Shown here: in pieces, positions 9,304 through 63,265 of the stretch
How positions within the stretch are numbered: the stretch's first letter is position 1
Layout of the letters: every line of letters starts with the position of its first letter
NCBI RefSeq assembly: GCF_001999965.1
Contig: NZ_CP019646.1
Span: 806,001 to 870,000, forward strand
Source of the DNA: Limihaloglobus sulfuriphilus
Lineage (GTDB): Bacteria > Planctomycetota > Phycisphaerae > Sedimentisphaerales > Sedimentisphaeraceae
Direction of reading: 5' to 3'
DNA: 64,000 nt
Made by a program: the position numbers and the translations under genes
The notes under the pieces: model-generated
Database searches by the model: none
Told to the model about the DNA's origin: nothing
Seen by the model: only the letters and a program-made list of their open reading frames with translations

Positions 9304-9413
9304 TCGCTCTATTTTTGCGATTTTTTCTAATAATTTTATAGCTTTTTTGTCTTTTTCATTATAGTATAATATATAGTATTCTATATCTTTGCAACGTTAA
9401 AACGAGGAAAATT

Positions 9414-10565
9414 ATGAAAAAAGAACAAAACCAACGCAGATTAATGGACTATTTTTCGACAATTGAAGACCCCAGAGTCGAGCGTACTCGCAAGCATGAG
9501 CTTAGTGATATTTTATCCATTGCAATTTGTGCAATAATTTGTGGCGCTGATGGATGGACACAGGTTGAAGAGTTCGCTCAGTGCAAAGAAGAGTGGTTTA
9601 AAAGTTTTCTTTCTTTGCCTAATGGCATTCCATCTCACGACACATTTGGACGAGTATTTTCTTCTCTCAAACCCGACTCATTTGAACAATGCTTCCTTGA
9701 ATGGGTCAATGCCTTAGCCCAAAAGAGTGAAGGCAGGCTCATAGCCATTGACGGCAAGACTATGCGTAGAAGCGTTGATTATGCATCTGAAAAAGCGGCT
9801 GTTCACATGGTAAATGCCTGGTGCGACACCAACAAAATGGTCATTGGGCAGATTGCAACAGAAACCAAGAGCAATGAGATAACGGCTATACCTAAGCTCT
9901 TGGAGTTAATTGATTTAGATGGTGCAGTTGTAACAACTGATGCTATGGGCTGCCAAAAGGAAATTGCTAATGCTGTAATTGAAAATGATGGGGACTATAT
10001 CTTGCAGCTAAAGGCAAATCAGACCGGCCTGCATAAAAATGCAGTTACCCTTTTTGATGAATGTATAGACGATAATGTCTATAATATTCAATATACTGTT
10101 GCAAGTGAAACTGATGGAGGCCACGGCAGGGTTGAAGAACGCACATTGCGGGCTGTTTCAAATGTAGGATTCCTTAACTCTGAAAAGAAAAACTGGGTCG
10201 GGCTCAAGAGCCTGATATGTGTGGAGGCAAAGAGGAGCATAGGAGATGAAACAAGCGTAGAGAAACGGTATTACATATCAAGCCTGACTTGCAAAAATCC
10301 GCCAAATTTACTCAAATATATCAGGGGCCACTGGGGGGTAGAGAACTCCTTGCACTGGTGTTTAGATATCAGCTTTGCCGACGATGAAAGGAGAATAAGA
10401 AAAGGTTATGGAGCAGAAAATTTTGCAAGGCTCTCACGAATAGCACTGAATCTGCTAAAACAGCAAACCAAGCACAAGGTCGGCATAAAGACCAGAAGGC
10501 TGTGCTGCGGCTGGAACGAGCAATACCTATATCGCGTGCTGACACAACAAAATAAAGGACTTTAG
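9414..10565 (+). CDS. ISAs1-family transposase
   Basis: A 383-residue DDE transposase. The N-terminal region (residues about 10-95, including DPRVERTRKHELSDILSIAI) matches the DDE_Tnp_1-associated domain. The catalytic core has AIDGKTMRRS with the first Asp, VTTDAMGCQ with the second, and HWGVENSLHWCLDISFADD with the Glu of the YREK-like signature. The start follows AACGAGGAAAATT. The stop codon lies inside the right inverted repeat. Full length and uninterrupted, so probably active. Confidence 0.95.
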   Translation: MKKEQNQRRLMDYFSTIEDPRVERTRKHELSDILSIAICAIICGADGWTQVEEFAQCKEEWFKSFLSLPNGIPSHDTFGRVFSSLKPDSFEQCFLEWVNALAQKSEGRLIAIDGKTMRRSVDYASEKAAVHMVNAWCDTNKMVIGQIATETKSNEITAIPKLLELIDLDGAVVTTDAMGCQKEIANAVIENDGDYILQLKANQTGLHKNAVTLFDECIDDNVYNIQYTVASETDGGHGRVEERTLRAVSNVGFLNSEKKNWVGLKSLICVEAKRSIGDETSVEKRYYISSLTCKNPPNLLKYIRGHWGVENSLHWCLDISFADDERRIRKGYGAENFARLSRIALNLLKQQTKHKVGIKTRRLCCGWNEQYLYRVLTQQNKGL

Positions 10566-46844: not shown

Positions 46845-48181
46845 GGCTCCTCACATAAATTTGTGCGGAAAAATTTGATATAGCATATGTTAACACTTGT
46901 TATAATGATGATTTAGAACAATGTTATAGCAAGGGAAAACATATGCTGCTTAAAAGAATACTAAAAAAGACATTAAAAGTCAAGAGACATAAAGTGGTAA
47001 AAGTCGATTATAGTGACAATCAGCTCAACTTTTATTTAGACGTTCTCAAACGTCGTCGGCTGCCTTGCGGCACCTGTCAGACGCTCGCTCCGCAACGTGA
47101 CCGGCTTCCGCAACGGCAGATTAAGCATGTTCCGTTATGGGGCATACCAGTGATGCTGCATTACCGTCCGGTTCGTGTCAGCTGCCCCAAATGCGGTGGG
47201 CCGAGGGTTGAGGACATACCCTTTACCTCAGGTAAATCACGTATGACAAACGGATTGGTCTGGACCTTGAGCAGTATGGCGAAATTGCTGCCCTGGCAAA
47301 CGGTTTCTCAGATGTTTAATGTCAGCTGGAATACGGTTCAGTCTGCGGTAAAGCAGGCAGTTGACTACGGCATGAAACACAGGGATACAGGAAAGGTCAT
47401 TTATATTGGCATTGACGAAGTATCCCGCCGCAAGGGTCATACGTATATGACGGTGGTGTACGACCTGGAAGAAAAACGCATTTTATGGAGCGGCCAGGGC
47501 CGGAAAAAAGAGACGCTGGAGGCGTTTTTCAAAGAACATGGAAATTCGTTAAAAGGCAGTTTAAAGGCGGTTTGCTGTGATATGTGGCAATCGTACATTG
47601 ATGTTGTAAAAGAGCATGTTGACGAGGATGTTGTTCTGGTTTTCGATAAATTTCATATCGTACAACATTTGAATCAGGCTGTCGATGAGGTACGCAAACA
47701 GGAAGCTATCACGCTCAAAAAAGACAACCCCGAACTGCTTAAAAAAACGCGATATATCTGGCTGAAGAATCCTGAAAACCTTACAGACAAACAGCGTGCA
47801 CGTCTGGGGTATCTGGAGAAGCTGAATCTTAAAGTCAACAGGGCTTATTTATTGAAAGAATCCTTTCGTGATTTTTGGGATTACCGCTACCCTGCAGCTG
47901 CCAAAAAATATCTTGCAAAGTGGTTCTGGTGGGCCACCCACAGCAGGCTCGAACCATTACGTGATTTTGCCTGGATGCTCAGAAAACATCAGCAAGGTAT
48001 CATAAATTATTTCAAATGCCGAGTCACCAATGGAGTCACCGAAGGTATGAACAATAAAGTTAAAACAATAGTCAAAAGAGGTTATGGATTCAGGACAATC
48101 CCGACGCTGCAGTTAGCCTTATATCACTGCCTTGGAAAGCTGCCTGAACCTGAAAATATGCACAAATTTGTGTGAGGAGCC
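46845..48181 (+). mobile_element. Complete ISL3-family insertion sequence
   Basis: Terminal inverted repeats of 22 bp with one mismatch: left GGCTCCTCACATAAATTTGT (46845-46864) continuing GC, right the complement ending at 48181. They are flanked by an exact 8-bp duplication TTACTTTT (46837-46844 and 48182-48189), the target size expected for ISL3. The element is 1337 bp with one intact transposase gene whose stop lies in the right repeat. Confidence 0.95.
46943..48175 (+). CDS. ISL3-family transposase
   Basis: A 410-residue transposase. An N-terminal zinc-finger region has CGTCQTL and CPKCGGP. The DDE core (DDE_Tnp_ISL3) has YIGIDEVSRRKGHTYMTV with the first Asp, AVCCDMWQSYIDV with the second, and the C-terminal SRLEPLRDFAWML and VTNGVTEGMNNKVKTI with the Glu. 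The start follows AGCAAGGGAAAAC. No frameshift was seen; likely active. Confidence 0.95.
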   Translation: MLLKRILKKTLKVKRHKVVKVDYSDNQLNFYLDVLKRRRLPCGTCQTLAPQRDRLPQRQIKHVPLWGIPVMLHYRPVRVSCPKCGGPRVEDIPFTSGKSRMTNGLVWTLSSMAKLLPWQTVSQMFNVSWNTVQSAVKQAVDYGMKHRDTGKVIYIGIDEVSRRKGHTYMTVVYDLEEKRILWSGQGRKKETLEAFFKEHGNSLKGSLKAVCCDMWQSYIDVVKEHVDEDVVLVFDKFHIVQHLNQAVDEVRKQEAITLKKDNPELLKKTRYIWLKNPENLTDKQRARLGYLEKLNLKVNRAYLLKESFRDFWDYRYPAAAKKYLAKWFWWATHSRLEPLRDFAWMLRKHQQGIINYFKCRVTNGVTEGMNNKVKTIVKRGYGFRTIPTLQLALYHCLGKLPEPENMHKFV

Positions 48182-48444: not shown

Positions 48445-49467
48445 TTAAACGGTCTTATGGTCGCTTGACAAGGACAGGCTGACCGGATTACACAAGGCTT
48501 TCAGATTCTGTTCTGGAGTTCCGGAGGGAATTTCACAACCGGCATTTACAAAATAAGGATTTCCAGCTTCTTTATAACACTGCAAAACCTTTTGATAAAT
48601 GGCATCCGGTGTCCCATACAAAACTCCCGCTGCCGGATCAATATTGCCTGTGAGAACAACACCCGAACCCATGGCAGTTCGCACTTTCCTTAAGTCGTTC
48701 ATGTGGTCAACATCGAGAATATCAACTCCCAAATCAGAAATACCAGGAAGTAAATGATTTATATCGCCGCAAATATGTAACTTAACAAATGCGCCTGCAT
48801 TTTTAATGGCTTTCACCAATTTTTTTTCACAAGGCTGAATCAATTCTTCGTAAATCTGTGGAGAGACCTGACTTGCAATGGCATCGCCAATCCCGATAGT
48901 GTCTGCTCCTGAGTCTATTTGAGCTAAAGCAAATTCAATTCCCGTTTTCAGGCAATGCTCCATCAGTTCAACAGTAAAAGCAGGGTCATCTATCAAATCA
49001 AAAAGAAAATTACTTGTATCTCGCAGATCTGCCGCTTCGGCTGCCGGCCCCTCAACCCAACCAAGAATAGAATAATTGTCTTTTGTTAGTTCTTTATATC
49101 TGCTAATAGCTTTTATACGGTCAAACATCCTTTCAGATTTATATGGATCTGGTTTTTTCAAAAGTGATAAATCTTTTTGGCTTGCCAGCGGGTGTGTGCT
49201 TCGAGGTGTACCGTTTTTGACATAAGTAATCTCCGAACCAAAGCCATGTGTCTCCCGGTAAGGATCGGATATGCTGCTCACCTGGTCAATACCAAATGTT
49301 TCTGCACAACGAATATTAGCTTCTACCAGCACCTTGTAGTCAGAGGCAAATGCTGCATAGTCTGAACCAATAAACTCAGCAGCATACTGCATTAATATAG
49401 GTGTTCTTGGTACAATATCTACCGGCTGCTTCTTGATCATCCGTATATACCGTTCATATCCTGTCAT
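48445..49467 (-). CDS. Uroporphyrinogen decarboxylase (URO-D) family protein, MtaA-like
   Basis: A 340-residue TIM-barrel protein of the URO-D superfamily. Motifs: LHICGD with the HxC zinc-binding pair and VNAGCEIP near the end with the third ligand, which points to the methyltransferase branch (MtaA/CmuA-like), not haem synthesis. Such proteins move methyl groups between corrinoid protein and coenzyme, or act in demethylation. No corrinoid protein gene is adjacent. ATG 49467 follows GGAG. It lies in a minus-strand group with a sulfatase and a sugar symporter, so it may act on a methylated glycan product; that is conjecture. Confidence 0.83.
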   Translation of the reverse strand: MTGYERYIRMIKKQPVDIVPRTPILMQYAAEFIGSDYAAFASDYKVLVEANIRCAETFGIDQVSSISDPYRETHGFGSEITYVKNGTPRSTHPLASQKDLSLLKKPDPYKSERMFDRIKAISRYKELTKDNYSILGWVEGPAAEAADLRDTSNFLFDLIDDPAFTVELMEHCLKTGIEFALAQIDSGADTIGIGDAIASQVSPQIYEELIQPCEKKLVKAIKNAGAFVKLHICGDINHLLPGISDLGVDILDVDHMNDLRKVRTAMGSGVVLTGNIDPAAGVLYGTPDAIYQKVLQCYKEAGNPYFVNAGCEIPSGTPEQNLKALCNPVSLSLSSDHKTV

Positions 49468-49590: not shown

Positions 49591-51135
49591 TTAACTGCTT
49601 TGTGGATTGAAATTTATGCAGTCAATACCAGCGGGATCTGAACAATCCTGCCAGCGGGAAGACATTTCAGAAAAATCTAACAGATTCACCTGCCCGTCCT
49701 TGTTGATATCTGCCTCTGAAAATTTTTGTGATGTTCCTTCAATAAACTCTCTCAAGCTGCTTGAAAGTTGGTCTGCGGTGTCATTGTAATCCGGTTCAGA
49801 GACAACATTTCTATTTTCTGAGGGGTCTTTTTTCAGGTCGTAAAGCATTTTGTCACCAGATTTGTATTCGGTGTAAATGTAATCGTCTGTTACGATCGTA
49901 TCACCGGTTAAAAATCTTGAGAAAGCCTCTTTTTTGTGTTCGGATTCTGGATTTTCCAGCAGGTTATCCATACTTTCCCCCTGCACGTGATCAGGAATAT
50001 CAATTCCCGCAAGATCGCAGAGGGTAGGATAAATATCAATCAATTCAACAATAGAGTCAGTTTTACTGTTCTTATTCAGCCACGGGACACTTATGATCAG
50101 TGTTGTCCTGATCGCATCGTGAAGCAGGTAATGCTTGCTCCAGAGATTGTGTTCACCCAGCAGCCAGCCGTGGTCGCCCCATAAAACAACTATAGTATTG
50201 TCCCGAAGCTCAAGCTCATCAAGTGTCGCAAGTATTCTGCCGACAAGATTATCGACATAACTGACGCAGGCGTAATAGCCATGCCGGGCTGTCCTGTGGA
50301 ATTCTTCTGAATTATATTCTGTATCTCTGAAGTGGTATTGGTGCACTTCCAGCGAAGCGGTCAAAGAATCCGGCGCATCAGCGGGGCGAAAACGGTTGGC
50401 GGCAAGGTCAATCTTATCCCGTTCATACATGTCCCAGTATTTCTTTGGAGCGTAGAATGGCAGGTGCGGCCTTACAAACCCACAGGCAAGGAAAAACGGC
50501 TTATCCGATTCCTTGAGCCGGCGCAAATCCTGTATGGTTTTCTCGCATACCTCACCGTCAATATAGGCATTGTCCGGTACGTCAGCTATCTCGTAGAATG
50601 GGCCTAAACCGGTTGAAGGATTGATGTATTGTTTGGATTCCGGGTCGTTCATTCTTGAATGTCCCGGGTTGGTTAAATCAAACGGGGTTTCTGACCAGCT
50701 TCGATTGGCGGTATCAGATGGATGGTGGAATATCTTGCCGTTAGTTATTGTGGTATAGCCGTTTTCTTTAAAAGCCTGCGGCAGTGTAACAGCGGAGGGT
50801 ATTGATCCTGCCAGTGCGTCATTATTGTCGTAAAACCTTTCAAATGAGGGTCTTATCCCGGAAAGAAGGCTTGCTCTTGAAGGCCCGCAAAGCGGAACCT
50901 GACAATATGCCCTGTTAAACCTGATTCCCTGACTGGCTAAATTGTCTATGTTTGGAGATTTTATCCAAGAGTTTCCATATGTGCCCAGCTCGGGCCTGAG
51001 GTCGTCAATAGCAAGAAACAGCACATTTGGAGCAGTTTTGCTTTTTGAAGACATGCTGCTCATAGCGCCGCAGTAACCGCTCAAAAGAGTAATTCCAATG
51101 CCTGCGGATTTTAAAAAATTTCTGCGTGTTATCAT
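49591..51135 (-). CDS. Tat-exported sulfatase (S1 family) with half-dockerin tail
   Basis: A 514-residue sulfatase, probably hydrolysing sulfate esters of a polysaccharide. It has a twin-arginine signal (TRRNFLKSAG), metal-binding LFLAIDDLRPELG, and the modification motif LCGPSRASLLSG, where Cys becomes formylglycine (CxPSR type). GKIFHH, WGDHGWLLGEH and KHYLLHDAIRT are iduronate-2-sulfatase-like. Residues about 470-514 form one calcium loop (ADINKDGQVNLLDFSEMS) followed by a W-x2-C pattern, a half-dockerin. The twin-arginine export is notable because sulfatase substrates here are extracellular. Start ATG follows AAAGGAAAG. Confidence 0.92.
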   Translation of the reverse strand: MITRRNFLKSAGIGITLLSGYCGAMSSMSSKSKTAPNVLFLAIDDLRPELGTYGNSWIKSPNIDNLASQGIRFNRAYCQVPLCGPSRASLLSGIRPSFERFYDNNDALAGSIPSAVTLPQAFKENGYTTITNGKIFHHPSDTANRSWSETPFDLTNPGHSRMNDPESKQYINPSTGLGPFYEIADVPDNAYIDGEVCEKTIQDLRRLKESDKPFFLACGFVRPHLPFYAPKKYWDMYERDKIDLAANRFRPADAPDSLTASLEVHQYHFRDTEYNSEEFHRTARHGYYACVSYVDNLVGRILATLDELELRDNTIVVLWGDHGWLLGEHNLWSKHYLLHDAIRTTLIISVPWLNKNSKTDSIVELIDIYPTLCDLAGIDIPDHVQGESMDNLLENPESEHKKEAFSRFLTGDTIVTDDYIYTEYKSGDKMLYDLKKDPSENRNVVSEPDYNDTADQLSSSLREFIEGTSQKFSEADINKDGQVNLLDFSEMSSRWQDCSDPAGIDCINFNPQSS

Positions 51136-51170: not shown

Positions 51171-52628
51171 TCAGTCAGCTTGTATTTGAATGGTCTGATT
51201 TTCCATCCTTAAATTTTCAAGGAATAATTTATTTACAGGGTAAAACTTGATCACAATAAGTGAACACAGCGATATAACCGGAGCGACAATAAGCCCGACA
51301 AAGCATATCCTCCATACTATCTCATCGCTTAGTTTTTCCTGGCCTAATGCGCTGTATCCGATCAGGGTTAATATGTATCCGGCAAGGAAAGAACTGACGG
51401 ACATGGACATCTTGAGCGCAAAGCTGTAAACAGCCGAGTAGCCGCCGTCTTTGTTTATGCCGGTTTTTATTTCATTTATTTCAGAAACATCCGCCATCAT
51501 CGACACGGTAATGGGAAATAGAATTCCGTTGCCGAACCAGTATCCTGAATGAAACAGCACAAACAGAATTACCGCCAAAGGAATGTTGAGTCCCAGCAAT
51601 GAAAATTTAAAGTCGGGCCCCATCCAGCCGGTCAGGAACAGAAGTGCAAGTATGAGGTTGGAGCTTACGCTGAGTATGCCGCCGAAGAAAACCGCTCCCT
51701 TTTTCTCAAAAAGCCTTACACAAAAGGAGGATATGAGAGCACCTATGCACATGCCTATCATTCCGCCGCCGTGGGCGAAGGTCTTTTCTGTGCCGCCGAA
51801 ATCCATGAAATGTTCATAAAGGTATATCTGCAAAGCGGCCTGTATGCCGATACCCAGCTGCACAAAGAATATAAAAAAGAATACATATCTGGGATATTTG
51901 TCTTTGATGATTTCGGTTATATCCCTGCAGAAGGCCTTGACAGAGTTGCCTTTTAGCTCTAACTGTCTTGAATCCTTGATGTGTTTTTTTGTGGAGAATG
52001 TCACTAAAAGCACAAAAAACAGGATAAAAGCACTGAAAACAGCCGCCATGTGCATGAAATTTGATATCTGTGAGGTTGCTTTTACGCCGCCCTGATCCTG
52101 AAAGAAAATACTCCAGGCCAAAGCCGGACCAAGCAGGTTTGCCAGCATATTCATTGCCATCCTGATCCCCTGCAGTTTGGATCTGCCGTTGTAGTCAGTA
52201 CATATCTCAAAGCCCAGCGCGGTATAGGGTACCACAAAAACCGTCAGGGCGGTTCGCAAGATGAGGTTTACGATGACCATATACCAGAAAATCGAAGTTG
52301 TGTTTTCGCGAATGAATCCAGGTACCGCCCACAATGAATAGAAGGTTAGCGAAAGCAGGATTCCGCCAATGAGTACGTATGGGTGCCGCCTGCCGAAACG
52401 CGAGCGGGTGTTGTCGCTGATATGCCCCATCAAGGGATCTGATACGGCGTCCCAGAATATCGCCAGCGACAGTGCCAGTCCGGCGTTTACCGGGCTTAGG
52501 CCCAGTGCGTCGGTGTAGCATATCATGGCGAAGCCGAATACGGTATTCATTACAAGTGATGTTGTACATTCTCCGGTGCCGTAGAGTACCATCTCTCCGG
52601 TGGAGCAGGAAGTTTTTGAATTACTCAT
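51171..52628 (-). CDS. GPH-family sugar:cation symporter
   Basis: A 485-residue membrane protein with about 12 helices. Glycoside-pentoside-hexuronide family signatures: ISDNTRSRFGRRHPYVLIG after DAVSDPLMGH, and MADVSEINEIKTG in the second half. It imports oligosaccharides or sugar acids with Na+ or H+. Placed between the regulator and the sulfatase genes (30 and 35 bp gaps), it probably imports the desulfated glycan product. Confidence 0.92.
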   Translation of the reverse strand: MSNSKTSCSTGEMVLYGTGECTTSLVMNTVFGFAMICYTDALGLSPVNAGLALSLAIFWDAVSDPLMGHISDNTRSRFGRRHPYVLIGGILLSLTFYSLWAVPGFIRENTTSIFWYMVIVNLILRTALTVFVVPYTALGFEICTDYNGRSKLQGIRMAMNMLANLLGPALAWSIFFQDQGGVKATSQISNFMHMAAVFSAFILFFVLLVTFSTKKHIKDSRQLELKGNSVKAFCRDITEIIKDKYPRYVFFFIFFVQLGIGIQAALQIYLYEHFMDFGGTEKTFAHGGGMIGMCIGALISSFCVRLFEKKGAVFFGGILSVSSNLILALLFLTGWMGPDFKFSLLGLNIPLAVILFVLFHSGYWFGNGILFPITVSMMADVSEINEIKTGINKDGGYSAVYSFALKMSMSVSSFLAGYILTLIGYSALGQEKLSDEIVWRICFVGLIVAPVISLCSLIVIKFYPVNKLFLENLRMENQTIQIQAD

Positions 52629-52658: not shown

Positions 52659-53798
52659 TTAACTGACCTTTATCGAATGACTGTTTGAGATGTGAGCTGC
52701 GTGCTCTTTCTCAAACGATATAACCGGGCAGGGGAGTATCATTTCTGTAAGAGGGCAGTTCTTGTTGTTCAGCAGTATATCAACCAGCAGCTCTGCCGCT
52801 CTTTCTCCCATGGTAACGAAATTCGGGTTTGTTGTCTTCCATGTCTTAACATTGCCGTTGGATGCCAGCATGGCGATCCTTGTGGCGAAATGGTCATTGT
52901 CGAAGCCGGCAACCTCTACAGAATCAGCTCGATTGTGGAAATTGCGTTTGAGGATATTTACCACATTAAGAGCTGTGAAGTCATGCGGTGCTATGATGGC
53001 ATCCGGCGGCGTCGTCTGCGACATCAGATAGTTTACCGCATCTCTGAGGGAGTCGGTGTCTAGTTTGTTAGCAGAGAACCCCAGATCAAAGCTCGGGCAC
53101 AGATTTGGTTCGAAAGACATTTCTTTGTCAGAAAGTCCTCTTATGTAGCCCCTGAACCGTTCATTAACTGAGGAATACTGATCTATATGCTCTGGTTTGA
53201 GAAACGCGATGTGTCTTTTTCCCAGCTCGGCGAAATAATAAACCATTTCTTTGGCAGCCTGGTAATTATCGAATATAACATGCGGCCGGTTCATCTCAGG
53301 TTTGTACATATCTACAACTACAATCGGCAGGTTGCGGAATTCTCTGCTCAGATAACATGGGTTAACCGGAAAATCCACATTCGGATACAGTACAATCCCC
53401 GCAACACCGCTTTCGTACATTGTTTTGATAATCTGATATTCCTTTTCAATATCAAAGTTGCTGTCGCCTATTTCGAGTGTAAAGTTGCTGTGATGTGTGA
53501 CATATTGAACCCCTTTGAGCACTTTTTGGCCTATCGACTCGAGCAGGCAGTTCACTACGAAACCGATTTTGGGCTTTTCCTCCGCGGTCTGGTTTTCGGA
53601 TGCGTAATACCCGCTGCCGGCTTTCTTGACTAGTTTTTTTTCAGCCGCGAGGATTTCAAAGACCTTGGAGATGGTGGCGCCGCTTGTATTATACTGCTGC
53701 GCCATGTTTCGTATCGAGGGCATTTTCTCGCCCGGCTCAAGCTGGCCGCTGAGGTAATCTTTTGTAATAACTGTTTTTAGTACTGTTTTCTTTGCCAT
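52659..53798 (-). CDS. GntR/LacI-type transcriptional regulator
   Basis: A 379-residue regulator. Residues 1-75 form a GntR winged helix (LSGQLEPGEKMPSIRNMAQQ, then TISKVFEILAAEKKLVKKAG). Residues about 80-370 form a LacI-type periplasmic-binding-protein sensor (GIVLYPNVDFP, HIAFLKPE, DAIIAPHDFTALNVV). Sugar binding probably controls DNA binding. It is the first gene of the minus-strand group, and a palindrome lies in its own promoter, so autorepression is likely; a related site at 54264 suggests control of the divergent gene cluster too. Confidence 0.9.
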   Translation of the reverse strand: MAKKTVLKTVITKDYLSGQLEPGEKMPSIRNMAQQYNTSGATISKVFEILAAEKKLVKKAGSGYYASENQTAEEKPKIGFVVNCLLESIGQKVLKGVQYVTHHSNFTLEIGDSNFDIEKEYQIIKTMYESGVAGIVLYPNVDFPVNPCYLSREFRNLPIVVVDMYKPEMNRPHVIFDNYQAAKEMVYYFAELGKRHIAFLKPEHIDQYSSVNERFRGYIRGLSDKEMSFEPNLCPSFDLGFSANKLDTDSLRDAVNYLMSQTTPPDAIIAPHDFTALNVVNILKRNFHNRADSVEVAGFDNDHFATRIAMLASNGNVKTWKTTNPNFVTMGERAAELLVDILLNNKNCPLTEMILPCPVISFEKEHAAHISNSHSIKVS

Positions 53799-53851
53799 TA
53801 TGCAAACCGGTCTATATATTGTTTGGTCATTAGAATTTGATTCCTATATTT

Positions 53852-53879
53852 ATAATACATCACTATGTATAACACACAA
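53852..53879 (-). promoter_or_regulatory. Promoter of the GntR/LacI regulator with operator in its spacer
   Basis: On the minus strand TTGTGT (complement of 53874-53879) and TATTAT (complement of 53852-53857) are spaced by 16 bp. The palindrome TAATACATCACTATGTATAA (53853-53872) covers the spacer and -10. Its arms TAATACAT/ATGTATAA mismatch at one base pair. Position fits a repressor site. Confidence 0.65.
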
Positions 53880-54239
53880 GTTTTTTTTGTCAATTCTGTA
53901 ATATAATTTGTTTGATCTTTGAATTTCCGGTTCCTATAGTTATTACAGTAAAACATTTATATTGTAATAAGTGTGTAATACATTTTCTGCTATTTTTGTT
54001 TTCGATGTGGTTAAACCTTAGTCTGAGACGTTTATAATCGTTTTTTCCAAGAAAATATTTAAAAATATAAAAATTGTTTGATATAAATATAAGCCCTTTT
54101 TTTATTTGGTTTTATATTCAGATGTCCTGTTTATGTTTCTCTGCTTTCAGTTTATTCTAAATTCAATATTTACAAAGTTTTAACTTTAAGTTTAATTTGA
54201 GATCGAAAACAAGGCTGCCCAGAATAATGATAAATTTTC
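53880..54239. other. Long AT-rich intergenic region
   Basis: This is the main part of a 635-bp gene-free region between the divergent regulator and FG-GAP genes. The only notable sequence is GTGTGTAATACAT (53971-53983), which is close to the complement of ATGTATAACACAC at 53865-53877 (one mismatch) and may be a half operator. No ORF or RNA gene was recognised. Confidence 0.4.
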
Positions 54240-54283
54240 TTGACTTCATTTTGAGGTTTCGTATAATACACTAAGTTGTGTAA
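54240..54283 (+). promoter_or_regulatory. Promoter and operator of the FG-GAP/glycosidase cluster
   Basis: TTGACT (54240-54245) and TATAAT (54262-54267) are spaced by 16 bp. The palindrome-like TAATACACTAAGTTGTGTAA (54264-54283) overlaps the -10 and the expected start site, and shares the form TAATACAY-N4-WTGTRTAA with the site in the regulator promoter. It implies a 5' leader of about 160 nt. Confidence 0.65.
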
Positions 54284-54433
54284 CTTAAAAATTAAACCAG
54301 CAACTGAAAAAGAAAGATAAATTTGTGGGATTTCTTTATAAATTAGAAACACTTTGTAAATAACATGCCTTGATTTTCAAGACGTTCTTTATTCTATTCA
54401 AAATTTAATTATTAATTGTGAAAGGTTAGAAAA

Positions 54434-55399
54434 ATGGAAGCGAGAAAAGAAATGTTAGTGGTAAGTATTATGTTGATTTTAGCAGTTATAACAAATGCAG
54501 CTCAGCTTGGGAGTGACGGCTATGCCGACAGGGTAATTGTCCGTGATGACGGAAACGGCAATGCCCTCTGGTATGTTGACCAGTCCGGCCCGGACGGTTT
54601 CGGCGATGGTCAGGCCGATCTGGTCGGGGGCTTTGGGCTCATGACAGATCGTCATATGGTCGGCGATGTCAACGGTGACGGCTATGCAGACCGTGTGCTT
54701 GGACGATATAACACAGCTGGTTATTGGGTTTACTGGGCTAGCTTCTCTTCATCTACCGGATTCGGCGATGGGGCTGACACAAACGGCAGCTTTGGAGGTA
54801 CTGGTTTAGTTCCGTATGCTGTTGCTGACCTGGATGGAGATGGGTTGGCAGACAGGATTGGTACCTCAATTGACGGTTCGAATAATCGTAATTATGTGGC
54901 AAATAAGACCGGCGTTGGCGGAACATTCACCACTGGAGGAGGTGATTGGCAGAAATATTGGGGCGGCACGAATACGAGTCTGGCAGGTATGTTCGATGTA
55001 AACAATGACGGTTACACGGATAGAGTTGATGCTTTCAACAACAACTGGCGTGTTGATTTCGGTCCATCATCAGGGGGGTTCGGTGACAGTGCGACAGACT
55101 GGACAGGCTATTTCGGCGGTACAGGTGATAATATCACCCGTCACATAGGTGATGTCAATAACGATGGTTACGGCGACCGTATCCTGGCTACCCTTAATGG
55201 AGAGGGCAATTATGACTGGATCGCTTCATTTACCACACCTGCCGGCTTTGGTACCGCCGGCGTGGAATACAACCAGCTGGCACCTTTTGGACAGACAGGC
55301 GATGTAGTCATTCTGCATGATGTCCTGGTTCCAGAACCGGCAACTATCGCTCTGCTTGCTTTTGGCGGTCTGGGCGCTGTAATAAAAAGAAAGAAATAA
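54434..55399 (+). CDS. FG-GAP repeat protein with PEP-CTERM anchor
   Basis: A 321-residue secreted protein. The signal peptide ends near TNAA. Five to six FG-GAP/VCBS-like blades each carry calcium-binding loops: GDVNGDGYADRV, VADLDGDGLADRI, FDVNNDGYTDRV, GDVNNDGYGDRI. It ends VPEPATIALLAFGGLGAVIKR, a PEP-CTERM signal for sorting by an exosortase. FG-GAP arrays form beta-propellers that bind glycans or proteins. The start ATG follows GAAAGG. The repeat part is closely related to the start of the protein at 56429, so the two arose by duplication. Confidence 0.88.
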   Translation: MEARKEMLVVSIMLILAVITNAAQLGSDGYADRVIVRDDGNGNALWYVDQSGPDGFGDGQADLVGGFGLMTDRHMVGDVNGDGYADRVLGRYNTAGYWVYWASFSSSTGFGDGADTNGSFGGTGLVPYAVADLDGDGLADRIGTSIDGSNNRNYVANKTGVGGTFTTGGGDWQKYWGGTNTSLAGMFDVNNDGYTDRVDAFNNNWRVDFGPSSGGFGDSATDWTGYFGGTGDNITRHIGDVNNDGYGDRILATLNGEGNYDWIASFTTPAGFGTAGVEYNQLAPFGQTGDVVILHDVLVPEPATIALLAFGGLGAVIKRKK

Positions 55400-55482: not shown

Positions 55483-56343
55483 ATGAATGGAAGAGCATCC
55501 ATCAGCCGCGGATTTACGTTGATAGAGCTTCTTGTTGTAATCTCAATAATTGCACTCCTGATGAGTATCTTGATGCCTGCTTTGACCAGGGCACGGGATC
55601 AGGCCAAGACTGTTATCTGCAAAGCCCGGCAAAAAGATATAGGCCTTGCTATAAATTTCTATGTGAACGATCATAACGGTTTGCTCATGGCATCCTGGCC
55701 TGTTGGCAATGAGCCCAAACCCGGTCAATTGGCTCATGATTCATATTATCACTGGTTCGCAAGGCTTGCGCCGTATTATAACAGAAAAGAAGGGCGTACG
55801 GACACAGGTTACTACGATTACGAGCTGCTCAGGTGCCCAACACAGGATAAACTCACTAAGATAGCCAAGACTCAGACAAATATCGAAAACCCCGGACCAG
55901 ATGTCGAGATTATCGGCTATCGGGGTATCTACGGCTACAATCTGTATTTTTGCCAGAGAAAAAACTTCCCGGATTATCAGTGGAAGAGGCTGGGTGACAT
56001 TCAGCAGCCTTCAACTCTGCCTTTAATCGGTGATATAAGCGGATATGGTTATTCTGAAATACCCTCCCTGAGAAACTCCTGGGGCGGCATGCACATGAAT
56101 CCCATGTTTCCGCATCCCTCCGCATTGAAGTACGGCTGGAACAGTGGTAAACCGTTTCCCGTCAGGTATAACAGTGCCGGGCCTGCCCCCAATCACAACG
56201 GCAAAATCAATTATCTGATGGCAGATTCGCATGTGGAATCTGTAGGACTCTTTGACTGGGCAGACCCGAGTGACCCCTACTTCGCTCCGGATTTCTGGAA
56301 GCCGTTTTTTCACCCCAAAAGAAATCCCGATATACGCCCTTAA
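55483..56343 (+). CDS. Type II secretion pseudopilin-like protein (prepilin with H-X9-D motif)
   Basis: A 286-residue protein with the prepilin signal RGFTLIELLVVISIIALLMS; the peptidase cuts after Gly and methylates Phe. The globular part is followed near the C-terminus by HNGKINYLMADSHVE, a variant (H-X9-DS) of the H-X9-DG processing-associated motif found in many planctomycete and lentisphaera pseudopilins. Such proteins are numerous in these bacteria and often sit beside secreted glycosidase genes. The exact role is unknown. Confidence 0.9.
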   Translation: MNGRASISRGFTLIELLVVISIIALLMSILMPALTRARDQAKTVICKARQKDIGLAINFYVNDHNGLLMASWPVGNEPKPGQLAHDSYYHWFARLAPYYNRKEGRTDTGYYDYELLRCPTQDKLTKIAKTQTNIENPGPDVEIIGYRGIYGYNLYFCQRKNFPDYQWKRLGDIQQPSTLPLIGDISGYGYSEIPSLRNSWGGMHMNPMFPHPSALKYGWNSGKPFPVRYNSAGPAPNHNGKINYLMADSHVESVGLFDWADPSDPYFAPDFWKPFFHPKRNPDIRP

Positions 56344-56428
56344 GAATACAGGGCCTTTGCTGAAAGGTAATTTAATATATGATTAAATCGCCTTAGAATA
56401 GTATTAATTTTTATTGGAGACTATTAAA

Positions 56429-58240
56429 ATGAGAGCTAAATGGTGTTTTTTTCCAATTTTTGTAGTTAGTTTTGCGGGGGTTTGTTTCTCGGCCGACTAT
56501 TACTGCGGTTCAGACGGATTCGCAGATCGAGTTATTGTCAGGGATGACGGCTCGGGTAATGCCCTCTGGATTGTTGACGCAACGACGGATGCCGCTTTCG
56601 GAGACGGACAGGGTGATTTATCCGGAACATTTGGTCTTATTACAGATTATCATATGCTTGGAGACGTAAATGGTGACGGTTACATTGATAGAGTGGTTGC
56701 CCGGATACACAGTTCAGGCAATTATTTATGGTGGGAGGTGAGCTACTCCGGCCCCCATGGGTTTGGTACTACAGGTATCAACGCCTCTACCAGTTTCGGC
56801 GGACCGAATATGATTCCTTATGCCGTAGCAGATGTGGACGGCGACGGCACCGACGACTGCATTGCTGTTGTGTACTCCGATGATGAGGACCCTGATACAC
56901 CTGATCCCCGCAGCTACTATGTTAAATATTCTGCGGGCGGGTTTCTTGCCGGAACGGTTGAAAGCAGCTTTTACGGCGGCACAAACACCGACCTTGTTGG
57001 TGTCTGTGACGTAAATAATGACGGTGTAGCAGACCGCGTGGACTTTTTCAGCGGTGCCGGCTGGAGGGCTGATTTCGGCGCTGCCGAAGGGGGGTTTGGA
57101 GACAGCCAGACTGACTGGACGGGGTTTTATGGTGGAACTAATGAAAACATAACACGTCACATTGGTGATGTAAATAACGATGGCTACGGCGACCGTGTAT
57201 TGGCAACCTTGAATCAGCAGGGATATTATGACTGGATTGCGTCTTTTTCCACCGCGTCGGGTTTTGGCACAACAGGCACAGAATACAATCAGATTGCCCC
57301 GTTTGGAGAAACTGGAGACCAGGTCATCCTTGCGGATGTGCTTACAGAGGAGCTGCCGTTTGAGCTTGCATATATAGCTCCTTATACAGATTCATTCGGA
57401 ACGAACGGCCTTTGGCACTGTGATGAAATAATCGACGCAGGAGAGGACAAGTTGATTACTCCAGATGATAACAGTGAAAATCCTGGAAGAAACCACGATA
57501 TGGTTCTCCGCAGCGGAGTTGATCTGGGTACATATGCAACCGGCCCGCAGCTTGTAACGGATAAAATCGGCGATCCTGAAAGCGGTGATGCAGATTTCGG
57601 CAATTGTTTCCAGTTTGACGGTTTCAGCCAGAGCCTCTGGGCGGATACTTTACTCAACGATAACCTGGGCGTTGACGACGGTAACTTGAGAGTAGAGGCC
57701 TGGGTGAAGTTTGAAGGAGAAACATACGGTGCCGGTGATTCGTATATGTTTATTTGTCATCATCAGCGATTCAGGCTGAGATTTGTGGATCATCCAACTC
57801 TGGGCTTCTTTTTGTCCGGCTATGTTTTTGACACTAATGTAACAGCTCATCACCTCGTTTATACTCTTCCGACAGAAGATATAAATGAGTGGAACCATGT
57901 GGCACTGACATTTTACAACGGCACCGCCAGCCTCTATTTCAACGGGAGCGTAGTTGCATCTAAAGGCGGCCTTACACCGACCATAAACCCCTCTACCACA
58001 CCGCGGGTCAGCATAGGGGCGGCAATGCATGGCGGTCCGCCTTCGTATTATTTCTATGGCAAAATTGATGAAGTACGCATCGGGCAGGCTGTCCCGACAC
58101 CGCCGCAATGCGGATACTGGGGATACAGCCCTGCAGACCTGAACAAAGACTGTTATGTGGATATCAATGATCTGAACGTTTTTGTGTCGCAGTGGCTTGG
58201 CTGCACCATTCCCGGCGATGTGTCATGCATCCCCTGGTAG
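56429..58240 (+). CDS. Secreted FG-GAP/LamG protein with half-dockerin tail
   Basis: A protein of about 603 residues. The signal peptide ends FAGVCFSA. Residues about 20-310 form FG-GAP blades (GDVNGDGYIDRV, VADVDGDGTDDCI, CDVNNDGVADRV, GDVNNDGYGDRV) closely similar to the protein at 54434. Residues about 340-560 form a LamG/concanavalin-type domain (VEAWVKFEGETYG, WNHVALTFYNGTASLYFNGS, YGKIDEVRIG). The end is a half-dockerin, ADLNKDCYVDINDLNVFVSQ, then W-x2-C. It lacks a PEP-CTERM signal. ATG 56429 lies 8 nt after GGAGA; the TTG at 56414 overlaps that region and is rejected. Confidence 0.88.
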   Translation: MRAKWCFFPIFVVSFAGVCFSADYYCGSDGFADRVIVRDDGSGNALWIVDATTDAAFGDGQGDLSGTFGLITDYHMLGDVNGDGYIDRVVARIHSSGNYLWWEVSYSGPHGFGTTGINASTSFGGPNMIPYAVADVDGDGTDDCIAVVYSDDEDPDTPDPRSYYVKYSAGGFLAGTVESSFYGGTNTDLVGVCDVNNDGVADRVDFFSGAGWRADFGAAEGGFGDSQTDWTGFYGGTNENITRHIGDVNNDGYGDRVLATLNQQGYYDWIASFSTASGFGTTGTEYNQIAPFGETGDQVILADVLTEELPFELAYIAPYTDSFGTNGLWHCDEIIDAGEDKLITPDDNSENPGRNHDMVLRSGVDLGTYATGPQLVTDKIGDPESGDADFGNCFQFDGFSQSLWADTLLNDNLGVDDGNLRVEAWVKFEGETYGAGDSYMFICHHQRFRLRFVDHPTLGFFLSGYVFDTNVTAHHLVYTLPTEDINEWNHVALTFYNGTASLYFNGSVVASKGGLTPTINPSTTPRVSIGAAMHGGPPSYYFYGKIDEVRIGQAVPTPPQCGYWGYSPADLNKDCYVDINDLNVFVSQWLGCTIPGDVSCIPW

Positions 58241-58301
58241 AGATAATTGATGTTTGTCTTAGAAAAATATGAAATCCATAGATAATACAGGAGAATTTAC
58301 G

Positions 58302-60860
58302 ATGGCTCGTTTAACATATATTATGCTTATAGTTTTATTTGTGCTTCAGGCCGCCTACGGGTATCACTACAATGTGCCCAGAGCTGAAGTTACACCGGTA
58401 ATAGACGGGGTACTTGACCAGGGTGAGTGGACTGACAGCCGTTACATATCAATGGTATATCCTGACCTGGTAACAGCGCCTAAAGAAGGTTCTATTTTTG
58501 ATACAGAACCGCCCGCCGATGCGTCCGACTACAGCCTTGACTGGTTTGTCAAGTGGGATGATGATTATCTATATCTTGCCGCACGCGTTTACGATAATGT
58601 GTTCGTTGCAGACGACGGCAATGATGAGCCGCAGGTGTGCTTTAACTTTCGCGATGATCCAGTCGCCGAATTCCTTACAGAGGCTATTATATGGAATGTG
58701 ACGGTAAACCGCGGTTTTTACACTAATACCGATGACCCCTCAGCGCTTACGCCTGACAATTCAGATGTTGTTGGTAACGTTCTTGGCGACGGCTATGTAA
58801 TAGAGATCAGGCTCGCTTTCGCAGATATATCCACTGAAACCGGATATCAGCCCAAAGCAAGCGATATACACGGTTTCGGTCTGGCGTGCCAGGACCATGA
58901 CGCAGCAGGTTCCCGGACGACATTTATGCTTGATTACGGCAGCGGAGCACCGGTGATTCAGGATCCATCGACATGGAATACTATTATTCTTACTGACCGG
59001 CAGACATGCGGTGACTGGGAATACGCGTTAAATGATTTGAATAAGGACTGTGTTGTTGATTTGCTGGATTTTTCCCTGATCGCAGGTTACTGGCTAAGCT
59101 GCACAGACCCCACAAATGAAAACTGCCTTCCTGCCGCGGAGATTATGTCAACGCAGCAGCAGCTTGAATCTTTGCAAAGCAAACAGATGATAGTTCCCAG
59201 CTGGGGTTATGATGCTTCAGTGATGGCGGCCGGTGCAAAAGAAGCCGGCTACCAGGTAGGCAATACTCAAAGCTTTGATGCCTGGAAAGGCCAGGGAGTT
59301 GAAGTGCTGGCCCGTCCTGAAATTGAAACTGACGATCCGTTCGATCCGGCAGATGTTCAGGCGGGAATTGATACGCTTGCAGAGTTTGTTGAATCGGTAG
59401 ATTCAGACCAGAATGTAGTTGGTTATGTTATCAGATGGGGACATTTAGGAGAAGGAGGTTTCCCATACGATTATGAATTCAGCGAAACTGCACGGCAGGC
59501 CTTTAACGACTATATGGGCACTCCCGGCGAGCCTCTGCCGACCCGTCCCTCGCCGGGCAATCCCGGAGATATGCGGTGGATCAAGTGGATCGAGTTCCGC
59601 AGCAAAACCCTTAGAGATTTCCGTGAAACTTATATATCAGCAATAAAACAGGTTACAAATAAGCTGGTGAGCACCTGGAGCGAGTTTTACGCAACAAGGC
59701 ATTACGATTTGAACATGGGTGAGGCCCCCGGAGCTGATTTCCTGTTTCATGATCTCTCTTTCGGAGATGTAACCACAGATCAGCAGATAGCTTTTGGTGA
59801 GTGTCATGGTATTCTTCAGAATTACTCAACCTTTGAGTCCTGGCGAGATGTAATACTGCCTTATATGGCCAAAGCCGCCGGCGACGGTGTGGTTCCTGTA
59901 GCGTTTCACTATCCATACAGCCATAGTTTCGACGATATACAGCAGGAGTTCTCTCTTCGGATAGGCTCGAGTATTCGCGGCCTTATAGACACGGTAGGCA
60001 GGCCCCAGAGAAACTATGAAGTCGCTTTGGTCTATAACTCCTTCTCCGCGGCAGCCCTGCCGCAGGGATCAAACCCTGATAGCCTGGTTATGGATATTTA
60101 CTCCGAAAAATGCGCCAAGCAGGTTGAGGGGATTCTCCAGCAGCTGGGTGTGGATTTCAAAGTTATTGCATACGAAGGACTTGAATATAAAGACCTTTCC
60201 CAGTATAAGCTGGTGATAGTGCCTGATCCAATGTATCTGACTGATCAGATGCGGACAAATCTTGCCGGCGCATCAAAAGTCATGTACGCCGGAGAATATC
60301 TGATGGCCCACCGTTCTACCCAGAGCGGCGACTACAATACCGAGTTTACCGCACAAACGCTGCTGCCGGGTGTAACCCTTGATTATTTCAAGGCTCCTGC
60401 CGGTCAGCTTGCCGCGGAAACGCCTTCTCACAGATGGCTGGCCGGCATAGACCTCTCGTCTAACCCTGATTATCCAGCCGACCAGATGTTTGCCTTCTCT
60501 CCAATGGCTGCCTCTTATGAGGTTGTGTTGAAAGTTGGTTCTAATCCGGTACTTATCGAAAATACCTCGGGCAATGAGATATTCATAACCAACAGATTTT
60601 TCCATAACGGCTGGAACCTCCCATCAAACTGGCTGGAAACGATTCAGTACCAGTTTTTGAAAAATGTGCTAAGCGATCTCGGTGTGGAAATACCGGTTGA
60701 AAGCGGCCAGCAGGTCAGGGTTCAAAGCGGCAACTCTTTTGGAAGCTACGGGATAAACGGCAATGTTGCCTGGAACGCTACCGGAAGCGATGTTACCATA
60801 ACTCTCGTTGGCGGTAAGACTTTGACCATACCCGGGTACGGCTGGACACTTGCCGATTAG
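58302..60860 (+). CDS. Secreted CBM9-like, half-dockerin and glycosidase-like multidomain protein
   Basis: A protein of about 852 residues with signal peptide MARLTYIMLIVLFVLQAAYG. Residues about 25-235 look like a family 9 carbohydrate-binding module (VTPVIDGVLDQGEW, LDWFVKWDDDYLYLAARVYD). An internal half-dockerin follows (LNDLNKDCVVDLLDFSLIAG, W-x2-C). The rest resembles a GH42/GH-A-type TIM barrel with a trimerisation-like domain: VVGYVIRWGHLGEGG, STWSEFYATRHYD and YKLVIVPDPMYLTDQM. A catalytic pair cannot be assigned with certainty. ATG 58302 follows CAGGAGAA; the upstream ATG 58269 would add residues that spoil the signal peptide. Confidence 0.75.
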   Translation: MARLTYIMLIVLFVLQAAYGYHYNVPRAEVTPVIDGVLDQGEWTDSRYISMVYPDLVTAPKEGSIFDTEPPADASDYSLDWFVKWDDDYLYLAARVYDNVFVADDGNDEPQVCFNFRDDPVAEFLTEAIIWNVTVNRGFYTNTDDPSALTPDNSDVVGNVLGDGYVIEIRLAFADISTETGYQPKASDIHGFGLACQDHDAAGSRTTFMLDYGSGAPVIQDPSTWNTIILTDRQTCGDWEYALNDLNKDCVVDLLDFSLIAGYWLSCTDPTNENCLPAAEIMSTQQQLESLQSKQMIVPSWGYDASVMAAGAKEAGYQVGNTQSFDAWKGQGVEVLARPEIETDDPFDPADVQAGIDTLAEFVESVDSDQNVVGYVIRWGHLGEGGFPYDYEFSETARQAFNDYMGTPGEPLPTRPSPGNPGDMRWIKWIEFRSKTLRDFRETYISAIKQVTNKLVSTWSEFYATRHYDLNMGEAPGADFLFHDLSFGDVTTDQQIAFGECHGILQNYSTFESWRDVILPYMAKAAGDGVVPVAFHYPYSHSFDDIQQEFSLRIGSSIRGLIDTVGRPQRNYEVALVYNSFSAAALPQGSNPDSLVMDIYSEKCAKQVEGILQQLGVDFKVIAYEGLEYKDLSQYKLVIVPDPMYLTDQMRTNLAGASKVMYAGEYLMAHRSTQSGDYNTEFTAQTLLPGVTLDYFKAPAGQLAAETPSHRWLAGIDLSSNPDYPADQMFAFSPMAASYEVVLKVGSNPVLIENTSGNEIFITNRFFHNGWNLPSNWLETIQYQFLKNVLSDLGVEIPVESGQQVRVQSGNSFGSYGINGNVAWNATGSDVTITLVGGKTLTIPGYGWTLAD

Positions 60861-60973: not shown

Positions 60974-63265
60974 ATGGCATATAGGATTATTCTGGTATTA
61001 TTGGCCACAAGTGCATTTGCTTTTGCAGACGAATATTTTTACGGTTATACCGGGGACGGTTCAGTGCCGCCTTCGCCGGATTGGATGCATGATGCGGTAT
61101 TTTACAGCCTGAATGTTCAGCACTTTGGCAAAACCCAGACAAAAGGCTCTTATTTTGATAAGGCCGCGGCAGAGCTGGAATATGTAAAGGAGCTTGGAGC
61201 AAATACCGTTGTGATCAATCCCGTTCAGGAATTTGTTGCCAATATGCCCAAGGCGTATTGGAACGGATATTACCTCAAAGATCCCACAGCCATATCGGAT
61301 GTGTACGGCGGCGGCAGAGATTTCAAAAAATTCGTGGACAAGGCTCATTCTCTCGGCTTGAAGGTGATTGTCGATGTTGTTGTAAGGCATGTATATGCCG
61401 ACGGCCCCGAAGCCAAAAAACTGCTGGCTCAGGGCAAACACGACTGGTTTGTGCCCGGTCTTACTAAAGAGCAGTTAGAAGTCCCTTTCCGCGGCGATAC
61501 AGTGGGAGCCTACAACGCAGAAAAAGGTGAATTCGTATTTCTCTCGTTCGATTCATCCGCTGTGAGTGAAGTCAACAACCAGAAAAAATACCACTTCATA
61601 AAAAGCGATGCCGCCGCAAAAACCGTAACCGGTGACTGGGACGGCGACGGCAGAGACAGTGTCGGCGTAAGACAGCCTGACGGCACATTCTTACTGGGGG
61701 GCATTGCCCGGGCATCCCAGGTCTCTCAGGTAGAGCATATATTCAAATTTGGCCCGGCCGGCGAACATATAATTCCCATTGCCGGAGACTGGGATGGCGA
61801 CGGTAAAGATACCCTCGGCATATACGACCCGCAAACAGGCACCTTTTTTATTAAAAATTCCCTGGCGCCCGGAAAAGCGGATGCTACATTTAACGGCCTC
61901 AGGGCAGGAATGGTGCCCCTTGCCGGCGACTGGGACGGCGACGGCAGGGACACACTTGGTGAATATGACCCGAATTCGGGTAAGTTTTATCATTATGACT
62001 CTAAGGGTGAACTGGTTACGCAGGCCTACAGGTTCGGCTCCGTCGGTGAATATACCGCGGTCAGCGGTGACTGGAATGACGACGGGAAAAATGGGATAGC
62101 CCTGGTTAAAGACGCGCATCCGCAGTACGGGTATGGACACCGGTTTATTTATATCTACAAAAATAAAATATCAGGAGGTGCCGCGGACGGGACCTTTGAG
62201 CTGAATCTGCCCGCCGGTTACAATGACTGCGCGATTGCGGGTAATTTTGATTATAACGCCCAGAGGACACCGTCAATATTATTCGGCGGCACCTGCTATC
62301 ATTATAAGTGGGATAATGAAGATTTACAGGAGTATATGATTGATTTATGGGTCGATCTGGTTAGAAAATTCGATTTTGACGGTTACAGGCTCGATCTCGA
62401 GGCCTATCAGACGGTACTTGTGCCTTTTGGTAACCAGAATATATGGAAGAGGGTCATAGAAAAATGCTACAATGATTTTGATAAAAAGATACTGATCATC
62501 TCGGAAATGGACGGTATGGGCAACAACAATATTCATGCCGAACAGGATACTTTCGGAGTCCTGACCAATCTGCACTGGGACCCTGCCGGGAAAAAACGCA
62601 ACTTTATGGTAAATGCAAATATTGTAGATACCGCTAAGACTTTAGAAAATACCTATTACACAATGACACTGAGCTGTCACGACCACGCAGAATTTCAGGC
62701 CCAGGGCAGGCGGTCAACGTTCGGTTATATGGTTTTTTCACCGTTTATGCCGTGGTGGAGGATGGGCGAAGAGATAAACGCCCTTAATCTGGCTCCAACG
62801 GCGGGCACAACCGATTACGGCTATGTACTTTATTTTTCCGACATGGATTGGGATTCGCTCAAAGAGCCCGAGAAGAAGGCATTTTATGAAGACGTTCGCA
62901 GAATGCTGCAACTCAGAGAAGAATATAAAGATATCATTTCGCCGTTTTGCTCGAAATTTAAGGATAGAAATTTCACTGCCATACCGGCAGAAGGCTGTAA
63001 GCTCCAGGTTTACGCCAACTACGGCAGCGGTATTGCAATTATTGTCGCGGCAAAACTCGATGAATCAGACGGCGACGTTACCCTGAATATAGATTCGCAG
63101 AAACTGGCAGAAATGGGTCTGGGCGATTTTGAAAAATTCAGGGTTACCGAAAAACTCTACAGGCCCAATGAGAGCAGGGTTTTGAGTAAATCGCAGCTCA
63201 GTGAGCTCTGCCAGTATGTTGAAAATAATAATGTTGTATTTATGGTTATTGAAGGTTTAAAATAG
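60974..63265 (+). CDS. Secreted GH13 alpha-amylase-family enzyme with FG-GAP array in the domain B position
   Basis: A 763-residue protein. The signal peptide ends FAFA. The GH13 barrel starts WMHDAVFYSLNVQHFG. Region I is VIVDVVVRHV (D134, H139); region II is DGYRLDLEAY (nucleophile D474); region III is ISEMDG (acid/base E511); region IV is LSCHDHAEF (H569, D570). Between regions I and II, residues about 215-430 hold five FG-GAP-like units, with GDWDGDG at 220, 271 and 318, GDWNDDG at 365 and a weaker unit at 423. The usual domain B is much smaller, so the array replaces or extends it. The catalytic triad is intact, so an active alpha-glucan enzyme is expected. Confidence 0.88.
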   Translation: MAYRIILVLLATSAFAFADEYFYGYTGDGSVPPSPDWMHDAVFYSLNVQHFGKTQTKGSYFDKAAAELEYVKELGANTVVINPVQEFVANMPKAYWNGYYLKDPTAISDVYGGGRDFKKFVDKAHSLGLKVIVDVVVRHVYADGPEAKKLLAQGKHDWFVPGLTKEQLEVPFRGDTVGAYNAEKGEFVFLSFDSSAVSEVNNQKKYHFIKSDAAAKTVTGDWDGDGRDSVGVRQPDGTFLLGGIARASQVSQVEHIFKFGPAGEHIIPIAGDWDGDGKDTLGIYDPQTGTFFIKNSLAPGKADATFNGLRAGMVPLAGDWDGDGRDTLGEYDPNSGKFYHYDSKGELVTQAYRFGSVGEYTAVSGDWNDDGKNGIALVKDAHPQYGYGHRFIYIYKNKISGGAADGTFELNLPAGYNDCAIAGNFDYNAQRTPSILFGGTCYHYKWDNEDLQEYMIDLWVDLVRKFDFDGYRLDLEAYQTVLVPFGNQNIWKRVIEKCYNDFDKKILIISEMDGMGNNNIHAEQDTFGVLTNLHWDPAGKKRNFMVNANIVDTAKTLENTYYTMTLSCHDHAEFQAQGRRSTFGYMVFSPFMPWWRMGEEINALNLAPTAGTTDYGYVLYFSDMDWDSLKEPEKKAFYEDVRRMLQLREEYKDIISPFCSKFKDRNFTAIPAEGCKLQVYANYGSGIAIIVAAKLDESDGDVTLNIDSQKLAEMGLGDFEKFRVTEKLYRPNESRVLSKSQLSELCQYVENNNVVFMVIEGLK

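Follow-up and report, generated by a model that had tools for sequence, protein, structure and literature searches.

The intergenic region 53799-54433 of the window (the whole 64,000-nucleotide stretch of DNA that was analysed) carries two similar dyads, site 1 and site 2, which, judged from their sequence and position, are probably (at a rough probability of 0.55) operators of the adjacent GntR/LacI-type repressor in an autoregulated divergon in which each promoter has its own operator. The top-scoring pair of sites in this region, namely sites 1 and 2, covers the -10 element of the top predicted promoter on both strands, and this placement is a stronger argument than the likeness of the two sites. 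The features concerned are listed in Table 1.

Table 1. Candidate sites, predicted promoters and flanking genes (positions are those of the window).
Feature	Position	Strand	Description
URO-D / MtaA-CmuA-like methyltransferase	48445-49467	-	Possibly last gene of the minus-strand operon
Sulfatase	49591-51135	-	C-terminal dockerin-like repeat; probably same operon as regulator
GPH-type sugar:cation symporter (MFS_2)	51171-52628	-	30 bp behind regulator; probably same operon
Regulator (379 aa)	52659-53798	-	GntR winged helix-turn-helix and LacI-type periplasmic-binding-like sensor
Site 1, ATAATACATCACTATGTATAAC	53852-53873		Candidate operator on -10/start of regulator promoter; dyad centre 53862.5
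Best minus-strand promoter (predicted)	53866-53893	-	TTGACA (53893-53888), 16-nt spacer, TATACA (53871-53866)
Single half-site, GTGTGTAATACAT	53971-53983	+	12/13 identical to site 1 minus strand (53877-53865)
Best plus-strand promoter contained entirely in the intergenic region (predicted)	54240-54267	+	TTGACT, 16-nt spacer, TATAAT (-10, 54262-54267)
Site 2, ATAATACACTAAGTTGTGTAAC	54263-54284		Candidate operator on -10/start of FG-GAP promoter; dyad centre 54273.5
FG-GAP-repeat protein	54434-55399	+	PEP-CTERM sorting signal; first gene of divergent group
Prepilin-like protein	55483-56343	+	N-terminal methylation motif, H-X9-DG
FG-GAP and LamG-like (Laminin_G_3) secreted protein	56414-58240	+	Dockerin-like C-terminus
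CBM9-like protein	58269-60860	+	Dockerin-like repeat and putative glycosidase region (no Pfam match)
GH13 alpha-amylase-like protein	60974-63265	+	FG-GAP-like insert

In their 20-bp forms, TAATACATCACTATGTATAA (53853-53872) and TAATACACTAAGTTGTGTAA (54264-54283), both sites were recovered with the same letters and at the same coordinates as in an earlier note on this DNA; they are better described 1 base wider, as ATAATACA-N6-TGTRTAAC (53852-53873 and 54263-54284). The earlier description of both as palindromes suits site 1, which is fair (7 of 8 arm pairs matching), and poorly suits site 2 (5 of 8). Of 200 shuffles of the intergenic region, 195 held a palindrome equal to or better than site 1, and palindromy alone is unremarkable for these sites.

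Promoters were scored without reference to sites 1 and 2, and are predictions. The predicted -10 of the minus-strand promoter falls inside site 1, which overturns the placement of this site between -35 and -10 in the earlier note, and the placement of site 2 over the -10 and start of the FG-GAP promoter holds for the best predicted plus-strand promoter (an equal-scoring plus-strand candidate begins at 53792, within the first codons of the regulator). Relative to the predicted start, the dyad centre lies about 3 bases before it in site 1 and at it in site 2. Among 561 random sequences matched in composition, the top pair lay on both top -10 hexamers in 6, and in none of these did it score as high as the real pair; a further random set of 130 likewise held no top pair on both top promoters at that score. 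Because the null for joint placement carries the same -10 confounding as the real region but the statistic was devised post hoc, the placement evidence was read as roughly 1 in 100. Similar dyads on both divergent promoters, as expected of an autoregulated divergon, are present and jointly unusual, albeit on predicted promoters and with weak symmetry at site 2.

The genome (3,868,357 bases, of which the window is 806001-870000) was scanned for the motif in several forms. The pattern of the earlier note, TAATACAY-N4-WTGTRTAA, which was derived from sites 1 and 2 themselves, matched exactly at these two sites only, and with up to 2 mismatches was rarer than its reversed control (18 matches vs 31). 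The wider form, ATAATACA-N6-TGTRTAAC, was likewise exact only at sites 1 and 2 in 3.87 Mb, the next best match having 2 mismatches. The symmetrised form RTWAYACA-N6-TGTRTWAY had no exact match elsewhere in the genome, and its near matches showed a slight excess over the control (102 vs 76, palindromic places being counted on both strands). No wider regulon was thus found by the genome-wide scan, the near matches being few and not clearly more frequent than in the control; those inspected (L003, L004, L055 and L056) adjoin or fall within unrelated genes. The search for the pattern near other glycan genes, proposed as a check on the earlier claims, yielded no site beyond these two.

It is possible, though somewhat doubtful, that sites 1 and 2 resemble each other by chance, as AT-rich promoter DNA with a shared -10-like TATAAT/TATACA and AT-rich flanks, and that the regulator binds another place or sequence. 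The -10 hexamer TATAAT itself makes up part of the likeness, and look-alike sites arise easily in this intergenic region because its G+C content is only 25%. By identity count, a pair as good was obtained in 115 of 400 shuffles (29%), and genome-wide enrichment over reversed controls at 2-3 mismatches was not clear, both of which favour chance. When the pair was scored by base-weighted similarity plus symmetry, with position, orientation and gap (0-12) left free, its score of 22.87 was reached by random sequences in 6 of 163, 15 of 561 and 4 of 130 cases, and similarity without the symmetry reward was reached in 36 of 163 and 17 of 130; given this freedom of placement, the likeness is no more than slightly out of the ordinary, at about 3% of random sequences. 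As a real-DNA control, 43 other intergenic regions from a 400-kb sample of stretches of the same genome were scored, each against its own null, and an equal or higher z than that of the site pair (about 2.5) was found in 11, several of which are evident hairpins, tRNA-like or duplicated sequence. The intergenic region is not an outlier among real ones, and the site pair alone is weak evidence. The half-site TWATACAY, a pattern picked post hoc, has 4 copies in the 635 bp vs 0.29 in shuffles, and the pair and position statistics were likewise devised after the sites were known. Chance is opposed by the absence of the joint event from all 561 random sequences, and by the outer arm TGTRTAAC of site 2, which matches yet sits outside the -10.

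The true element might instead be the shorter GTATWAYACAC, present in three copies (53867-53877 on the plus strand, 53971-53981 on the minus strand and 54261-54271 on the plus strand), with the 20-bp dyad as a by-product of placement; this is quite unlikely. Only 7 exact copies of this core exist in the genome, the other 4 all lying inside ORFs, and it forms the best 11-mer triple of the region, such a triple being found in 28 of 703 random sequences. It also has the form GT-Nx-AC, the usual core of the GntR family (PMC4494728), but the regulator lacks the arginines that recognise the G of that core; moreover, GTATWAYACAC was chosen post hoc and lies on opposite halves of the dyad in site 1 and site 2. 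As a motif of a wider regulon, GTATWAYACAC was rejected, its copies outside this region occurring only within ORFs. At the possible half-site of the earlier note (53976-53983), TAATACAT is present as part of the 13-mer listed in Table 1; this 13-mer, which lies about 106 bp (ten helical turns) from site 1, may be an auxiliary site or a sign of another register of the true motif. Very unlikely is a single true operator, serving either autoregulation at site 1 or control of the structural genes at site 2, with the other site as a chance match: the poor symmetry of site 2 and the existence of single-site GntR divergons (PMC4494728) would fit it, and the way in which the two sites sit alike on the top promoters speaks against it.

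The N-terminus of the regulator (residues 12-65) matched the GntR winged helix-turn-helix family PF00392 at 34.6 bits (cut-off, 27), and its C-terminus matched PF13407 and PF13377 above the cut-off, as a LacI/periplasmic-binding-like sensor. In the structural model (mean pLDDT, 83), helices 29-35 and 40-52 were present together with a wing, and the top fold matches included chains of CcpA, PurR and AraR. In GntR structures, the main base-specific contact is made by an arginine to G (PMC4494728), and the base-contacting arginine in AraR is R41 (PMC4218819). On alignment with PdhR, I29 replaces E, and G40 and S44 each replace R, so that the regulator is without the recognition-helix arginine of the family that contacts G, and the preceding helix is without the usual glutamate. 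Since these base-contacting arginines are missing, an unusual operator is plausible, but family membership gives no means of predicting it. A YtrA-like recognition helix (resembling 3tqn/4ham) was also considered and is disfavoured, YtrA regulons being rarely divergent and having longer motifs.

Regulator homologues of more than 38% identity were absent from 161 genomes of the order and from a 392-genome sample of the phylum, and no close orthologue was found in a GTDB contig scan, which makes phylogenetic footprinting impossible. Three genomes of the order contain four homologues (L094, L095, L096 and L097) of 32-35% overall identity (BLAST, 32-34%; matched part alone, up to 38%). All four adjoin PEP-CTERM, prepilin-like, dockerin-like or glycosidase genes, and that of L097 diverges from a symporter 53.6% identical to the symporter of the window; the recurrence of the flanking groups near the homologues gives independent support for one regulator serving both sides. 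Upstream of these homologues, no copy of the site 1/2 motif and no shared motif was found, and their recognition helices differ from that of the window regulator. In the same order, GntR/LacI-type regulator genes repeatedly lie near prepilin-like, PEP-CTERM or dockerin-like genes (L094, L095, L096, L097 and L098). An inverted 28-bp pair (8-12-8 arms) was also seen at L097:11187-11484 on both predicted divergent promoters, of the regulator homologue and of the symporter; the score of this best pair was reached in 226 of 500 random sequences, and jointly with both promoters in 10 of 500.

Several observations concern the gene groups themselves. The N-termini of the two FG-GAP proteins (54434-55399 and 56414-58240) look closely related by eye, which suggests a duplication with differing C-termini (PEP-CTERM vs LamG and dockerin-like). 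Horizontal gain of the glycan cluster is possible, since the regulator had no match at E <= 1e-40 in four genomes of the same family. At the cluster's edge, immediately past the URO-D gene, lies an ISL3-family transposase gene (46943-48175). Elsewhere in the window, ATAATATATAGTATTCTATATC (9366-9387) precedes a DDE_Tnp_1-type transposase ORF (9414-10565) by 26 bases and has at least 8 further identical copies in the genome (e.g. at 1244135, 1920786 and 2608814); it probably forms one end of a multi-copy insertion sequence.

For the autoregulated divergon, regulator binding, repression, an effector and the extent of the operons are what we infer, on promoters and start sites that are predicted. 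A dimer of the effector-free regulator would sit over the -10 and start at each of the two divergent promoters and block RNA polymerase. Through site 1 the regulator would repress its own operon (regulator, GPH symporter and sulfatase), and through site 2 the FG-GAP/prepilin/LamG/CBM9/amylase-like operon, the half-site at 53971-53983 possibly contributing as an auxiliary site. An oligosaccharide from the target glycan would bind the LacI-type domain, and the regulator would be released. The earlier claim that one regulator links both groups is retained as the best reading, in view of the pair on both top promoters and the homologues near the same gene groups, and is weakened by the low symmetry of site 2 and by the failure of the genome scan to find further sites. 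Should the regulator bind them, sites 1 and 2 would offer a first operator open to testing in a regulator subfamily found repeatedly near glycan-degradation clusters in the order, and would place the symporter/sulfatase group and the secreted amylase-like group under one signal. A broader proposal, which we regard as unlikely, is a subfamily of GntR/LacI-type repressors in planctomycetes (Phycisphaerae-like) in which the canonical reading of G by arginine is lost, and which has atypical, species-specific operators (here ATAATACA-N6-TGTRTAAC) and controls glycan clusters with PEP-CTERM, prepilin-like and dockerin-like proteins.

The autoregulated divergon is a well-known principle and an ordinary arrangement in bacteria; the present one is ordinary in kind, and only the particular candidate operator sequence is new. 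As in the window regulator, a GntR DNA-binding domain is fused to a LacI-type effector domain in AraR of Bacillus subtilis, whose sensor domain was among the sequence and fold matches of the regulator (the fold match at a low identity of 17%). AraR represses sugar genes and its own gene via promoter-proximal palindromes, with only one box at its own gene, and its operator is At(T/A)tGTaCGTAcaa(A/T)T (PMC4218819). By inspection, the core GTaCGTAc of this operator is in neither site 1 nor site 2, and the window regulator differs from AraR in having no recognition-helix arginines. From the divergons of the FadR and HutC subfamilies it differs in its LacI-type sensor and in a candidate motif without an evident TKGT/ACMA or GTMTAKAC consensus. 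In those divergons that include the regulator gene, paired sites, each for its own operon, are the commoner form (99 of 160; PMC4494728), and the arrangement proposed here is of this two-site type, a regulator gene and a structural operon diverging with a candidate site at each promoter.
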